This document shows, piece after piece, positions 6,243 through 12,660 of a stretch of DNA of 32,625 nucleotides. The notes beneath the pieces are model-generated. The model was not told the origin of the DNA and made no database searches. It was given only the letters and a program-made list of their open reading frames with translations. This DNA is from Actinomycetes bacterium (lineage in GTDB: Bacteria > Actinomycetota > Actinomycetes > JAJZTN01). Made by a program: the position numbers and the translations under genes. The stretch's first letter is position 1. Every line of letters begins with the position of its first letter. The stretch is taken from assembly GCA_021848885.1 (NCBI GenBank), contig JAJZTN010000009.1:1-32625 (forward strand), written 5' to 3'.

Positions 6243-6433
6243 CGCTGCAGCCTGCGCGCTGACCCCGACCGGATGGGCGCGCTGGTGCCGGCCTGGGGAT
6301 CGCGGAGCGAGGCGAGCTGGCTGTGCATGACTGGTTGTGCATGGCTGGCTGTGCATCCATCCAGGCCCTGACCGTTCCCCTCACCGAGACGACCGCGCCC
6401 GGGGCAGCCCGCCCAACGCGGCACACTGAGGGG
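6243..6433. promoter_or_regulatory. Divergent promoter region between the DUF4192 and mprA-like genes
   Basis: Both divergent genes lack a usable Shine-Dalgarno and both have a -10-like hexamer exactly 6 nt before the start: CAGGCT before ATG 6242 on the minus strand, and CACACT (6422-6427) before GTG 6434 on the plus strand. Leaderless transcription in both directions is inferred. I found no CTCTCAG repeat here like the one before pepD. Confidence 0.4.
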
Positions 6434-7117
6434 GTGCGCATCCTGGTGGTCGACGACGACCGGTCGGTTCGAGAGTCGCTGCGCCGGTCCCTGTCCTTCA
6501 ACGGCTACACCGTGGACCTGGCCGCCGACGGTGCCCAGGCACTGGAGCGGGTCGCCGCCGTCCAGCCCGACGCCATCGTCCTCGACGTGATGATGCCGCA
6601 GCTGGGCGGGCTCGACACGGCCCGGGCCCTGCGCGCGGCCGGCAACGACGTACCCATCCTCGTTCTCACCGCTCGCGACGCGGTCGCCGACCGGGTCGCC
6701 GGGCTGGATGCCGGGGCCGACGACTACCTGACCAAGCCGTTCGCGCTGGAAGAGCTGCTGGCCCGGCTGCGCGCGCTGCTGCGCCGCTCCGCACCGGGCC
6801 CGGCAGGGGCCGGCCCGCTCACCTTCGCCGACCTCAGCCTCGACCCGGCCTCCCGCGAGGTGGCCCGCGCTGACCGGGGCATCCGCTTGACCCGGACCGA
6901 GTTCGCGCTGCTCGAGCTGCTGCTGCGCAACCCGCGGCGGGTGCTGACCCGCGAGCGGATCCTCGAGGAGGTCTGGGGCTATGACTTCCCGACCACGGCG
7001 AGCTCGCTTGAGGTCTACATCGGCTACCTGCGCCGCAAGACCGAGGCGGGCGGGGAGCCACGTCTCATCCACACCGTGCGCGGTGTCGGCTACGTGCTGC
7101 GCGAGGACCCGCCGTGA
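6434..7117 (+). CDS. mprA: OmpR-family response regulator, MprA-like
   Basis: A 227-residue two-domain regulator. The receiver domain (1-115) has the acidic pocket D8/D9, phospho-acceptor D51 ([12 protein letters not shown]), T79 and K101 (TKPFALEEL). The C-terminal OmpR/PhoB winged helix (about 130-225) includes [20 protein letters not shown] and [12 protein letters not shown] and ends [13 protein letters not shown] at 6434 gives the standard VRILVVDDD start. Its only purine run, GAGGGG, touches the start codon, so a leaderless start is likely. The stop overlaps the start of the kinase gene by 4 bp (GTGA at 7114-7117), indicating translational coupling. The order regulator-kinase-HtrA protease matches mycobacterial mprA-mprB-pepD, the envelope-stress system; the symbol rests on that synteny and overall similarity. 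Confidence 0.9.
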
Positions 7118-8628
7118 CCGAGCCTGATCGCGCCGCCGCGCCGCCCAGACCCGGGCCCGGGCCCCGGCCCGGCGAGACCGGAGCAGTCCCGCGGCCGCGG
7201 GCTGCCTGGGCAGGACTGCAGTCGCTGAGCCTTCGGGCCAGGTTGAGCCTGCTGGCCGCCGTCGGCGTGGGGCTGGCCGTCGCGCTGGTCTCGGTGGCGG
7301 CGTACGCGACGCTGCGCGTGCAGCTGCAACACAACCTGGACCAGGCCCTGCTGGACCGGGCCCGTGCGGCGGTGAGCTCCCCCTTGGGGGACCCGGCGGC
7401 GCTGGCCCAGATCCCGCCGGGGGCTCTGGCCGCTGCCGATCTCCGGATCGCCCTGCTGCGCGCCGACGGGCATGCCATCTCCGCCGAGGGAGCAGCCAGC
7501 GCACCACCGCTGGGTCCGGCCGAGCTGGCTGTGGCCAAGGGCCATGCGAGGCAGTCGACGCGCACCGCCGACCTGCGGGGCGTGCCCTACCGGGTGGTGG
7601 CGGTGCCGGCCGCACCCGGTTTCGCCCTGGTCCTCGCCCAGCCGCTGGCCGACGCCAACCGCACACTTGACCGGCTCGGCCTGGTGCTGCTGATCGTCGG
7701 CGGGCTCGGCGTGGCAGGTGCCGCCTGGGCCGGGCTGCTCATCGGCAGAGCCGGGCTGCGGCCGGTGCAGCGGCTCACTCAGGCCGCAGAGCACGTCGCG
7801 CGCACGGGGCAGCTGGACCCGATCGCGGTCAGCGGGGAGGACGAGCTGGCCCGGCTGGCCCGGGCCTTCAACGCGATGCTGGCCGCGCTGGCGCAGAGCC
7901 AGGAGCAGCAGCGCCGGCTGGTGGGCGACGCCGGGCACGAGCTGCGTACGCCGCTGACCAGCCTGCGCACCAACCTCGACCTGCTGGCGCAGAGCGACCA
8001 GCAGGGCGGGATGAGCCCCTCCGACCGGGCCGACCTGCTCGCCGACGTGCGGGCCCAGGTCAGCGAGCTGGGTGACCTCGTCGGTGACCTCGTGGAGCTG
8101 GCGCGGGAGGACCCGCCCTCCTCAGCCGACACCGACGTCGACCTGGGCGACGTGCTCGCCCAGGCCGTCGAGCGGGTCCGCCGTCGCGCGCCCCTGGTGA
8201 GCTTCCAGGTCGACTCGACCCCGTGGGTCGTGCACGGCGACGCGCACTCGCTGGAGCGGGCAGTGACCAACCTGCTGGACAACGCCGCCAAGTGGAGCCC
8301 ACCGCACGCCACCGTGCGGGTCGCCCTCATCGACGGAGCCCTGCACGTCGCCGACGAGGGCCCCGGGATCGCCGACGCCGACCTTCCGCACGTCTTCGAC
8401 CGCTTCTACCGCTCCCCCGAGGCGCGCAGCATGCCTGGATCCGGTCTTGGGCTGGCCATCGTCCGGCAGGCCGCCGAGCGGCACAACGGCACGGTCAGCG
8501 TCGCCCGGGCTCCGTGGGGTGGGGCGTGGTTCACCCTTCGGCTTCCCGGCCGGCCCGCGCTGACCCAGCCTGTCCCCGCAGCGGCAGGGACCCGCTCACC
8601 GTGGGGCCGCTGGCACCGCGAACACTGA
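7114..8628 (+). CDS. mprB: Membrane sensor histidine kinase, MprB-like
   Basis: A 504-residue kinase. After a Pro-rich cytoplasmic N-terminus comes TM1 (about 45-70, [20 protein letters not shown]), an extracytoplasmic sensor of about 110 residues, and TM2 (about 190-216, [20 protein letters not shown]). HAMP follows ([19 protein letters not shown]). The HisKA domain has phospho-acceptor H275 in [17 protein letters not shown]. The HATPase domain has an N box ([10 protein letters not shown]), G1 (DEGPGI), F box (FDRFYRS) and G2 (GSGLGLAIV). All catalytic boxes are intact. It overlaps the regulator gene by 4 bp and ends 101 bp before the proposed pepD start. In mycobacteria MprB senses envelope stress and interacts with chaperone and PepD; the same role here is inferred from gene order. 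Confidence 0.9.
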
Positions 8629-8688
8629 AGAGCGCCAAGGCACGCCGAGCGGGGCCACCGGGGGAGTTCTTCGGGTCCTCTTGGATCA

Positions 8689-8707
8689 CTCTCAGCCTGC
8701 TCTCAGG
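8689..8707 (+). promoter_or_regulatory. Candidate MprA-like activator box before pepD
   Basis: Two exact copies of CTCTCAG (8689-8695 and 8700-8706) are spaced by 4 bp, an 11-bp period typical of tandem OmpR/PhoB-family binding. Mycobacterial MprA is known to bind two loosely conserved 8-bp direct repeats separated by 3 bp, which fits CTCTCAGC-CTG-CTCTCAGG. The box ends 9 bp before a -10-like CAACCT (8717-8722), the spacing seen at PhoB-activated promoters, where the box replaces the -35. Confidence 0.65.
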
Positions 8708-8716
8708 CCGCATGGG

Positions 8717-8722
8717 CAACCT
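8717..8722 (+). promoter_or_regulatory. Candidate -10 element for pepD
   Basis: CAACCT lies 7 nt before ATG 8730, which would make the transcript leaderless. It is preceded by the direct-repeat box instead of a -35. Confidence 0.4.
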
Positions 8723-8729
8723 TCCTGTC

Positions 8730-10094
8730 ATGGACGAGACCAACAGCAGCACGCTCCCGATCGAACCGCTCCGGCCGGCACAGGGTGCGGCGCCCTGGTG
8801 GACCGCCCCGACCCGCCCCGAGCCTGGCCCGCAGCTGTCTGCCACGACGGTGCTCGACCCCTACCAGGTGCCCTGGCAGACCGGCGACCCCCAGACCCAG
8901 CCCGGGGATGCGGCGGGGGGGCCACCGTCAGCACCGCAGGCCCCTGCCGGCGGTGGTGGTGGTCGCCGTCGCGGGATCACCGGGCTGGTCGCCCTGGCGT
9001 TGGCGGCCGGTCTCTTCGGCGGTGCCGGTGGGGCCGCGGCCACCTACGCGATAACCCAGCACGACGCGAGACCCACCACGGTCAGCTCGCTGAGCGCACC
9101 GCCGGTGACCGCAGCGGCCAGCAAGAACCTCGGCCCGGTCAGCCAGGTGGCAGCTGCGGTGCTGCCCAGCGTCGTGTCGATAACGGTGCTCACCGGGCAG
9201 GGCGGTGACACCGGCAGCGGGGTGATCCTGTCCGCCAACGGGGACATCGTCACGAACAACCACGTGATCGCGGCCGCCAACGGTTCGGGCGGGACGATCT
9301 GGGTGACGTTCAGCAACGGCAAACGGGTCCAGGCCAAGGTGCTGGGCGCCGACCCGGTGACCGACATCGCGGTTATCCAGGCGGCGGGGGTCAGTGGTTT
9401 GAAGCCGGCCGCGCTTGGCAACTCCTCCTCCCTCGTCGTGGGCCAGCAGGTCGTGGCCATCGGCTCCCCGCTCGGGCTCTCCGGCACCGTCACCAACGGC
9501 ATCGTCAGTGCGCTGAACCGGCCGGTCAGCACCGGCGGCCAAGGGGGCCGCACCAACCAGTCCACGGTGATCGACGCGATCCAGACCGACGCCCCCATCA
9601 ACCCGGGCAACTCCGGTGGCCCGCTGGTCAACATGTCCGGCCAGGTCGTCGGGATCAACTCGGCGATCGCAACCCTGGGCTCCTCATTCGGCGGGCAGAG
9701 CGGCTCGATCGGGCTGGGCTTCGCGATCCCCATCGACCAGGTCCGACCCATCGCCCAGCAGCTGATCACCCGGGGTGTGGCCACCCACGCCCTCATCGGG
9801 GTCTCGGTGACCGACGCGACCCAGCAGGGGCTTCCCTTCGGTGCGGCCGTGCGGGCGGTCTCCCCCGGCAGCGCCGCCGCGGCGGCCGGGCTACAACCAG
9901 GCGACGTCATCACCTCTGTCAACGGTCAGGCGGTGGACAGCGCCGACGCGCTGGTCGCCCAGATCCGCGCCCAGCGACCGGGTGACATGGTGAGGATCAC
10001 CTGGCTGCGCGGTGTCGGGTCCAACGGATCGGGTGGCACCTCGATGTCGGCCACTGTCACCCTCGGGTCCGACCGGGCCAGCTCGGGCGGCTGA
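8730..10094 (+). CDS. pepD: Membrane-anchored HtrA/DegP-type serine protease with PDZ domain (PepD-like)
   Basis: The 454-residue protein starts with a Pro/Gly-rich cytoplasmic segment, then one transmembrane helix (about 80-105, [20 protein letters not shown]). The trypsin-like domain has His in VTNNHVIAAANG, Asp in DPVTDIAVIQA and Ser in NPGNSGGPLV. A C-terminal PDZ domain runs from ALIGVSVTD through VSPGSAAAAAGLQPGDVIT. ATG 8730 (MDETNSS) is preferred over ATG 8712 because the candidate -10 lies 7 nt upstream and the regulatory box would otherwise abut the start. Two in-frame stops end the gene (TGA TAA). It follows the mprAB-like pair. In mycobacteria PepD is an envelope quality-control protease under MprA control, so the same feedback loop is expected. 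Confidence 0.93.
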   Translation: MDETNSSTLPIEPLRPAQGAAPWWTAPTRPEPGPQLSATTVLDPYQVPWQTGDPQTQPGDAAGGPPSAPQAPAGGGGGRRRGITGLVALALAAGLFGGAGGAAATYAITQHDARPTTVSSLSAPPVTAAASKNLGPVSQVAAAVLPSVVSITVLTGQGGDTGSGVILSANGDIVTNNHVIAAANGSGGTIWVTFSNGKRVQAKVLGADPVTDIAVIQAAGVSGLKPAALGNSSSLVVGQQVVAIGSPLGLSGTVTNGIVSALNRPVSTGGQGGRTNQSTVIDAIQTDAPINPGNSGGPLVNMSGQVVGINSAIATLGSSFGGQSGSIGLGFAIPIDQVRPIAQQLITRGVATHALIGVSVTDATQQGLPFGAAVRAVSPGSAAAAAGLQPGDVITSVNGQAVDSADALVAQIRAQRPGDMVRITWLRGVGSNGSGGTSMSATVTLGSDRASSGG

Positions 10095-10103
10095 TAACGG
10101 CCC

Positions 10104-10178
10104 GCCCGCCAGGCCTGCAGAGCCCGGCAGCGCCGGGCAGAGCCCGCCAGGCCTGCAGAGCCCGGCAGCGCCGGGCAG
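10104..10178. terminator. Duplicated hairpin between convergent genes, probable bidirectional terminator
   Basis: A 37-bp sequence at 10104-10140 is repeated exactly at 10142-10178. Each copy contains the palindrome GCCCGGC-AGC-GCCGGGC (7-bp stem, 3-nt loop). The pair fills the gap between the stops of pepD (plus) and the DevS-like kinase gene (minus). Confidence 0.75.
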
Positions 10179-10180
10179 CG

Positions 10181-11824
10181 TTACCGGGGGACTCGCCAGA
10201 CCAGGCGGGTCCCCCGGCCGTGCCCTGCCACCGCGGTCGCGCTGAACTGCCCACCAAGGGCCTCCGCCCGCTGGGTCAGGTTGCGCAGCCCGCTGCGCCG
10301 CCCGCTGGGCTCAAGACCGACACCGTCATCGACCACGACGAGCGCTATCGCCTCGTCATCGACCTGGACAGTGATGTGCACCCGGGCCGCCTCGGCGTGG
10401 CGGGCCACGTTGGTCAGCGCTTCACGCAGCGCCGCCACAAGGTCGTCGGCGACGCCGTCGGGAACGGCGCTGTCGATCGGCCCGATAAGGGTCATCGTCG
10501 GCTCGAAGCCGAGAGCCTCCGCGACCTCACTTGCCTCTCGGCGCACCCGCTGGCGCAACGACCCGTCATCCTCGGTCGGGGTCTGCAGCTGGAAGATTGC
10601 CGAGCGGATCTCCCGGATGGTGGCGTCAAGGTCCTCGACCGTCTGGTTGATCCGAGTGCCCACCTGGGCCACCTTGGTCAGCTGTGCGACCGCCTGAAGC
10701 CCTAGCCCCGTGGCGTAGAGCCGCTGGATGACCAGGTCGTGCAGGTCCCGGGCGATGCGCTCCCGGTCGGCGTGCACGGCCAGCTCCTGGCGGTCGTGCT
10801 GGGCCTGACCGAGCAGCAGCGCGACGGCCGCCTGGGCGCCGAAGGCCTCCAGCGTGGCCACCGTGTCGGAGGGGAAGCGCGGCTCGGGGCGCGGGCCGAT
10901 AACCGCGAGCACCCCGATGCTGCGGTCCTCGGCGACCAACGGCACGTACGCCGCCGCAGCCTCGGCCAGGGGCCCGGCGCCGGGCAGGCCGGAGCCGAGC
11001 GCGTCGACAACCAGCGGGATTCGGGTGCGGGCGACCTCGGCGACCGGGCTCGCCTCGGCGGCCACCGCACCCAGCATGCCGAAAGTGCCCGACCCGGAGA
11101 CCACCTCGACGACCAGGTAGCCGGCACGCTGCGGCAGCAGCACGACGGCCTGCTCAGCCCCGGAGATCACCCTGGCCCGGTCCACCACGAGCTGGAGCAC
11201 CGCACGGGTCTCCCGGCCGCTCAGCACGGCCTGCACGATCTCGGCGTTGGCCCGCGCGGAGCGGGCCCGGCGCTCGGTCTCGGCCAGCAGCCGGGTGTTC
11301 TCGATCGCCGCACCGGCCGCCGCGGCCAGCGCGACGACGACGCGTTCGTCGTACTCGGTGAAGGCCCCGCCGCCGCCCTTCTCGGTCAGGTAGAGGTTGC
11401 CGAATACCTCACCGCGGGCCCGCACCGGGACACCGAGGAAGGACTCCATCGGCGGGTGGTGCTCAGGAAACCCGACCGAGGCGGGGTGCTCGGAGAGGCG
11501 AGCGAGCCGGATCGGCTCGGGATGCTCGATGAGCAACCCGATCAGACCGTGGCCCTGTGGCGTCGGACCGATCTTCTCGGCCAGCTCGGCGGAGATCCCG
11601 TGCGTGACGAAACGGTCGATGCGCCCGCCGGGCCCCAGCACACCCAGGGCGGCGTAGCGGGCATCGACAAGCGCCGCGGCGGCCTTGACGATGCGCCCCA
11701 GGACGGTGTCCAGCTGCGGCTCGCTGGACAACGAGGCCACCACACCGAGGAGCACCTCGGCCCGCGCGGCATCCGTCGAGGGCACGGCGATGCCGTCAGC
11801 CAGCATCGGGTCGGCCCCACTCAC
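10181..11824 (-). CDS. devS: DevS/DosS-like two-GAF sensor histidine kinase
   Basis: A 547-residue soluble kinase. GAF-A (about 25-180) contains GFPEHHPPMESFLGVPVRAR and EVFGNLYLTEKGGGGAFTEY, very like mycobacterial DevS/DosT. GAF-B (about 200-345) follows. The HisKA_3 dimerisation domain has H362 in RERIARDLHDLVIQRLYATG. A NarX/DevS-type HATPase follows (EALTNVARHAEAA, VVVDDGVGLE, GLRNLTQRAEALGG). In DevS, GAF-A binds heme and senses O2/NO/CO; which histidine here would be the proximal ligand needs an alignment. GTG 11824 is the outermost start and ATG 11806 (residue 7) is an alternative; neither has a clear Shine-Dalgarno. It lies about 46 bp downstream of the cognate regulator gene, so a devRS operon is inferred. 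Confidence 0.88.
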   Translation of the reverse strand: MSGADPMLADGIAVPSTDAARAEVLLGVVASLSSEPQLDTVLGRIVKAAAALVDARYAALGVLGPGGRIDRFVTHGISAELAEKIGPTPQGHGLIGLLIEHPEPIRLARLSEHPASVGFPEHHPPMESFLGVPVRARGEVFGNLYLTEKGGGGAFTEYDERVVVALAAAAGAAIENTRLLAETERRARSARANAEIVQAVLSGRETRAVLQLVVDRARVISGAEQAVVLLPQRAGYLVVEVVSGSGTFGMLGAVAAEASPVAEVARTRIPLVVDALGSGLPGAGPLAEAAAAYVPLVAEDRSIGVLAVIGPRPEPRFPSDTVATLEAFGAQAAVALLLGQAQHDRQELAVHADRERIARDLHDLVIQRLYATGLGLQAVAQLTKVAQVGTRINQTVEDLDATIREIRSAIFQLQTPTEDDGSLRQRVRREASEVAEALGFEPTMTLIGPIDSAVPDGVADDLVAALREALTNVARHAEAARVHITVQVDDEAIALVVVDDGVGLEPSGRRSGLRNLTQRAEALGGQFSATAVAGHGRGTRLVWRVPR

Positions 11825-11869
11825 GGGCGCGCCCGGGCCGGGGCGACGACGGTGCGGCAGCCTCGCGGC

Positions 11870-12535
11870 TCAGCGCAGCGTGCCGCTTCGACGTGCCTCC
11901 GTGACGTAGATGGCCGCCTGGGTACGCCGGTGCACCCCCAGCTTGGCGAGCAAGCTGGTGACGTAGTTCTTGACCGTCTTCTCAGACAGGTGCATGCGCT
12001 GGCCGATCTCACGGTTGGTCAGGCCCTCCCCGATCAGCTCGAGCACCGAGCGCTCCTGATCGGTGAGCGTAGCGATCCTCTCGTCGCGGGGCCTACCGCG
12101 CCGGACCCGGTCCAGCACCCGGGCCGTGGTCGCCTGGTCCAGCAGCGACCGACCCGCGGCAACCTCGCGGATCGCCCCGACCAGGTCGCCGCTGCGGATC
12201 TCCTTGAGCACATAGCCGGAGGCACCGGCCATCACCGCGTCGAAGAGTGCCTCGTCGTCGGCGAACGAGGTGAGCATGAGGGCCTGCAGGCCGGGGATCT
12301 GGTCGCGCAGCTCACGGCAGGCCTCGACCCCGGAGCCGTCGGGCAGCCGGACGTCAAGCACCGCCACGTGCGGGTTCACCAGCGGGGCACGGGTCAGTGC
12401 CTCGGCCATCGTGCCAGCCTCGCCGACGATCTCCATGTCCGTCTGCGCGCTGATCAGCTGCGCCAGGCCGCGGCGCACGATCTCGTGGTCATCGAGCAGG
12501 AAGACCCGGATGGGCCCAGTGCGGTCAACTGCCAT
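11870..12535 (-). CDS. devR: NarL/DevR-family response regulator
   Basis: A 221-residue regulator. The receiver domain has D15/D16, phospho-acceptor D61 (VAVLDVRLPDGSGVEA), T in LMLTSFADDE and K in YVLKEIRSGD. The LuxR/NarL helix-turn-helix is LTDQERSVLELIGEGLTNRE then KTVKNYVTSLLAKLG, matching the DevR recognition helix pattern. ATG at 12535 (MAVDRTGPIRVFLLDDHE) is preferred. It has no Shine-Dalgarno, but CACCCT lies exactly 6 nt upstream, suggesting a leaderless message. The gene is followed by the DevS-like kinase gene. The DevRS role (hypoxia/NO dormancy response) is known from mycobacteria; the symbol is by similarity and gene order. Confidence 0.88.
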   Translation of the reverse strand: MAVDRTGPIRVFLLDDHEIVRRGLAQLISAQTDMEIVGEAGTMAEALTRAPLVNPHVAVLDVRLPDGSGVEACRELRDQIPGLQALMLTSFADDEALFDAVMAGASGYVLKEIRSGDLVGAIREVAAGRSLLDQATTARVLDRVRRGRPRDERIATLTDQERSVLELIGEGLTNREIGQRMHLSEKTVKNYVTSLLAKLGVHRRTQAAIYVTEARRSGTLR

Positions 12536-12660
12536 GTGAGCAGGGTGACACATCAGGTCCCGGGACCCCGAGGACCTTCGTCCCAGCGACACGGCCCCGC
12601 GGGTGGCTGGGCGGCACGAGCATCGCCCCGGTGGCCGGGGGTCAGACCCGGTGGGGCAGG

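Follow-up and report, generated by a model that had tools for sequence, protein, structure and literature searches.

The window analysed here, a 32,625-nt stretch of DNA from an Actinomycetes bacterium (contig JAJZTN010000009.1 of assembly GCA_021848885.1), carries an mprA-mprB-pepD gene cluster, which raises the question of whether pepD has a promoter of its own and, if so, which regulator controls it.

The mprA-mprB-pepD locus and its repeat box

All three genes lie on the + strand. The mprA ortholog (6434-7117) encodes an OmpR/PhoB-family response regulator with 76% identity to Mycobacterium kyorinense MprA, the only match of that level in the genome (next paralog, 47%). The mprB ortholog (7114-8628) encodes a HAMP/HisKA/HATPase sensor kinase, and the pepD/htrA-like gene (8730-10094) a serine protease with trypsin-like and PDZ domains. 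The gene order mprA-mprB-pepD supports the identification of the linked regulator as MprA. Its recognition helix region (13 residues) is conserved across nine diverse loci and includes the LRxK motif, on which DNA binding by MprA depends in M. tuberculosis (PMC4867592). In M. tuberculosis, pepD has been reported as a direct MprAB target (PMC3062566), and MprA control of pepD is thus already published for that species. No terminator was found between mprB and pepD. Just past the pepD stop codon, a stretch of ~38 bp is directly duplicated (10103-10178), and directly downstream, on the minus strand (10181-12592), the translations resemble DevS/DevR, with a GAF-like sensor kinase and a LuxR-type regulator.

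A sequence-only reading had described a CTCTCAG-N4-CTCTCAG direct repeat with an 11-bp period in front of pepD. This repeat is present on the + strand at 8689-8706, its half-sites being R3 (8689-8695) and R4 (8700-8706, within the -35 region and just past it). The probability that some 7-mer would recur by chance at a distance of 10 or 11 bp anywhere in the 101-bp mprB-pepD gap was p ~0.03, so that within the gap alone the repeat is suggestive but falls short of proof; cross-genome conservation is what decides whether it is real. The genome scan that had been proposed for the full pattern recovered the pepD site and no other exact match in the 2.68-Mb assembly. The shorter pattern TCTCAG-N5-TCTCAG occurred twice, compared with once for the reversed pattern. 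Its second exact copy (G000:C44:204-220), some 130 bp ahead of an RbpA-like gene but in the opposite orientation, lacks a -10 element and was rejected as a further site because its occurrence is within the chance rate; RbpA belongs to the SigE regulon in M. tuberculosis (PMC10027907). Composite sites with 2-3 mismatches in the same genome were mostly noise and were also set aside.

Conservation of the box and the leaderless pepD promoter

Eighty pepD/htrA loci were taken from public genomes, and 75 upstream regions were scanned for the spacing of the YTCAG core. YTCAG-N6-YTCAG was found in 51 of the 75, while every other spacing tested (0 to 24) was found in 0-4 loci, and no YTCAG repeats were detected on the opposite strand of these 75 regions. 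Presence of the YTCAG core was the criterion by which the aligned loci behind the R3/R4 spacing had been chosen. When a less strict box score was combined with the two -10 bases, 65/72 loci were positive, against 0/70 background stretches. Screening 297 genomes of the class for box-N10-CANNNT returned 64 sites, compared with 5 for the backward control; of the 30 sites that were fetched, 25 were located at one of two genes, mprA or pepD. Outside the mycobacteria, these sites had a start codon at +38 to +40. The -10 counts among loci selected with this composite pattern are circular and were excluded as evidence for the -10 element. The same direct-repeat box lies upstream of pepD in two Mycobacterium loci (L022 and L027), the former in the 8-3-8 form TCTCAGTC-GAT-TCTCAGTC; mycobacterial DNA itself thus bears out the claimed match to the MprA box form of two 8-bp direct repeats with a 3-bp gap. 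Judged by these sequence comparisons, the repeat box before pepD is a genuine conserved operator, whose position is kept in many actinobacterial families. Four CTCTCAG copies in a row with an 11-bp period were also seen in a distant member of the class (L126 ~1501-1540, G008:C445), where the 3 kb fetched contained no mprA or pepD match.

The candidate -10 element of pepD, CAACCT (8717-8722, + strand; consensus CANNST), lies 7 nt ahead of ATG 8730, as had been stated, but 10 nt after the box rather than the 9 bp originally counted. When 25 dissimilar loci chosen on the box alone were anchored at the box, 24 had A at +27 and all 25 had T at +31. No -35-like hexamer was found upstream of this -10 element. 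Relative to the predicted start at 8730, R3 and R4 occupy -40 to -24 and the -10 element -13 to -8. The box therefore stands in place of a -35 element, at a fixed 10 nt before a -10 element with near-invariant A and T, which is the class II layout; footprints in other families likewise support the PhoB-box-like geometry first proposed.

No Shine-Dalgarno sequence was found ahead of ATG 8730. If this ATG is disregarded, the pepD reading frame remains open back to 8223. The start codon is placed by its distance from the box: in Actinopolymorpha, Kribbella, Jiangella, Phytoactinopolyspora and several MAGs, an ATG follows CTCAG by 38-39 nt, and in the window by 39 nt. This conserved distance argues for ATG 8730 as the start codon, as the earlier reading held, and for a leaderless mRNA. 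The pepD transcript thus probably begins at the A of ATG 8730, 7 nt past the -10 element, and conserved footprints in other families favour CAACCT as a leaderless -10 element. In Mycobacterium, Nocardia and Rhodococcus, a longer leader mostly precedes the pepD start codon. A leaderless MprAB-dependent transcript has been described at sigE in M. tuberculosis (PMC10027907).

A four-unit array at pepD and the missing box at mprA

The original description was limited to a two-unit box. R3 and R4 are present, but two weaker in-phase units further upstream had been overlooked. Conservation was scored at 43 offsets upstream of the box in 22 dissimilar loci in which mprB ends before the site. The two highest-scoring offsets were -23 (z=4.0) and -12 (z=2.6), both exactly in the 11-bp phase. 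In the window, they correspond on the + strand to R1 (TCTTCG, 8668-8673, -62 to -57 from the predicted start) and to the weak half-site R2 (TCTTGG, 8679-8684), which matches the box pattern with two mismatches. Conservation of R1 as plain mprB coding sequence was rejected, because R1 is still kept where mprB ends upstream of it. Additional in-phase units were visible by eye in Kribbella. Since R1 and R2 both keep the 11-bp phase, the putative operator is best read as an array of four units in tandem, of which R3 and R4 are strong and R1 and R2 weaker.

The mprA promoter differs. In 55 of 71 loci, an mprA box scoring at least 10 of 12 was found at the same -38 to -41 position, and in some others further upstream, whereas the best score in the 130 bp upstream of the window mprA was 6 of 12, the lowest of the 71 loci. 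A -10-like element, CACACT (6422-6427, + strand), lies 6 nt before the mprA start codon GTG 6434, with no recognisable MprA box upstream. This lowest score suggests that the autoregulatory mprA box has been lost in the window lineage, a lead that comes from one genome of that lineage. The pepD promoter had been presented as a second MprA promoter inside the locus: footprints elsewhere support the promoter between mprB and pepD, but the implied first one, at mprA, lacks a recognisable box. Upstream of mprA, three head-to-tail copies of a 14-bp sequence (CTGGCTGTGCATGA, CTGGTTGTGCATGG and CTGGCTGTGCATCC) were noted at 6317-6358, possibly inside the start region of a divergent gene. We propose, giving it an even chance of being right, that in the MprA circuit ancestral to the class Actinomycetes a single promoter layout served mprA and pepD alike: an in-phase 11-bp repeat box, then 10 nt, CANNNT and a start codon at the transcription start, with the box lengthened to four repeats at pepD. 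Loss of the mprA copy in the window lineage would then have converted the positive-feedback switch to a plain line from sensor to output.

Candidate mechanism, alternatives and known systems

From the observed sequence, spacing, conservation and orthology we infer binding, activation, the start site and the signal, and we consider it very probable that 8668-8706 is an operator through which the linked MprA activates a leaderless pepD promoter in the class II manner. Phosphorylated MprA dimers would bind head-to-tail on the 11-bp direct repeats, with R3-R4 as the strong sites and the weaker R1-R2 probably occupied co-operatively. With the core repeat straddling the missing -35, MprA would act as a class II activator that brings RNA polymerase to the -10 element at 8717-8722, and transcription from the A of ATG 8730 would yield a pepD mRNA without a leader. 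By this route, envelope stress perceived by MprB could raise PepD without depending on mprAB read-through.

The neighbour-encoded MprA is most likely the protein that binds the box. Linkage itself was uninformative on this point, because loci without a linked mprA often still carry the box (Fisher p=0.10). Another OmpR-family regulator might own the box or share it with MprA, a paralog such as that encoded at C79:4080-4730 being an example. This closest MprA paralog (47%) carries a TTCAG-N6-CTCAG box with a possible GTG start of its own 38 nt further on (G000:C79:4758-4789, minus strand, L188), another paralog (L221) retains most of the recognition helix (11 residues), and in relatives boxes also occur near other regulators of ~47% identity. 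We regard this as unlikely, since composite sites in relatives concentrate at mprA and pepD and no other gene in the genome matches the 76% identity of its MprA. The box of the C79 paralog carries a GACAAT -10 element in the same geometry as the pepD promoter.

The sign of regulation could also be reversed, with the core repeat, which overlaps the core promoter, serving to repress pepD. A response regulator bound across a core promoter can act as a repressor, as CutR does (PMC12802291), and one assay in C. glutamicum showed higher htrA expression in the mprAB mutant (PMC12113857). The missing -35, which makes the promoter look activator-dependent, the fixed 10-nt distance between box and -10, and the description of MprA as raising pepD expression in M. 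tuberculosis (PMC3062566) make repression improbable, more so than binding by a paralog. Least credible of all is a chance or decayed repeat, with pepD expressed only via mprAB read-through. The p of ~0.03 for the repeat alone and the terminator-free mprB-pepD interval would fit, but the word, the spacing, the -10 element and the start distance are conserved across families, intergenic cases included.

Activation of pepD by MprA is preferred. The operator is well conserved, its anatomy is sharper than first described, and it comes with one unusual lineage feature. The comparison yields a consensus for the MprA operator and promoter that is resolved to single bases and holds across the class, so that the start codons of pepD and mprA can be fixed in genomes lacking annotation. 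In the accessible literature, we found no description of the class-wide footprint, the four-unit array, the leaderless geometry or the missing mprA box. A role in shaping the mycobacterial stress switch is attributed to feedback loops at mprA; the window lineage appears to run the same output without such a loop.

PhoB/PhoP pho-box class II promoters have repeats of 7 bp separated by 4 bp in place of the -35 element, ~10 nt before the -10, and the contact at the -35 is supplied by the regulator instead. The window promoter has the same layout, but its half-site (CTCTCAG) and its regulator differ. Two-component control of an HtrA protease, as proposed here, is also known from Streptomyces (CutR-htrA3) and C. 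glutamicum (MprA-htrA). The CutR motif TAWATAAA (PMC12802291) and the C. glutamicum MprA motif TKTTAAGAAM (PMC12113857) do not fit the window box, and the latter difference counts against reading the box as an MprA operator. The M. tuberculosis mprAB-pepD locus shares with the window the gene order, an orthologous regulator and a direct repeat with an 11-bp period. The mycobacterial relatives, however, have a leader of ~50 nt or more between the -10 element and the pepD start codon, whereas the window pepD is predicted to be leaderless, and the mprA box, which is present in the mycobacteria examined, is not recognisable in the window.
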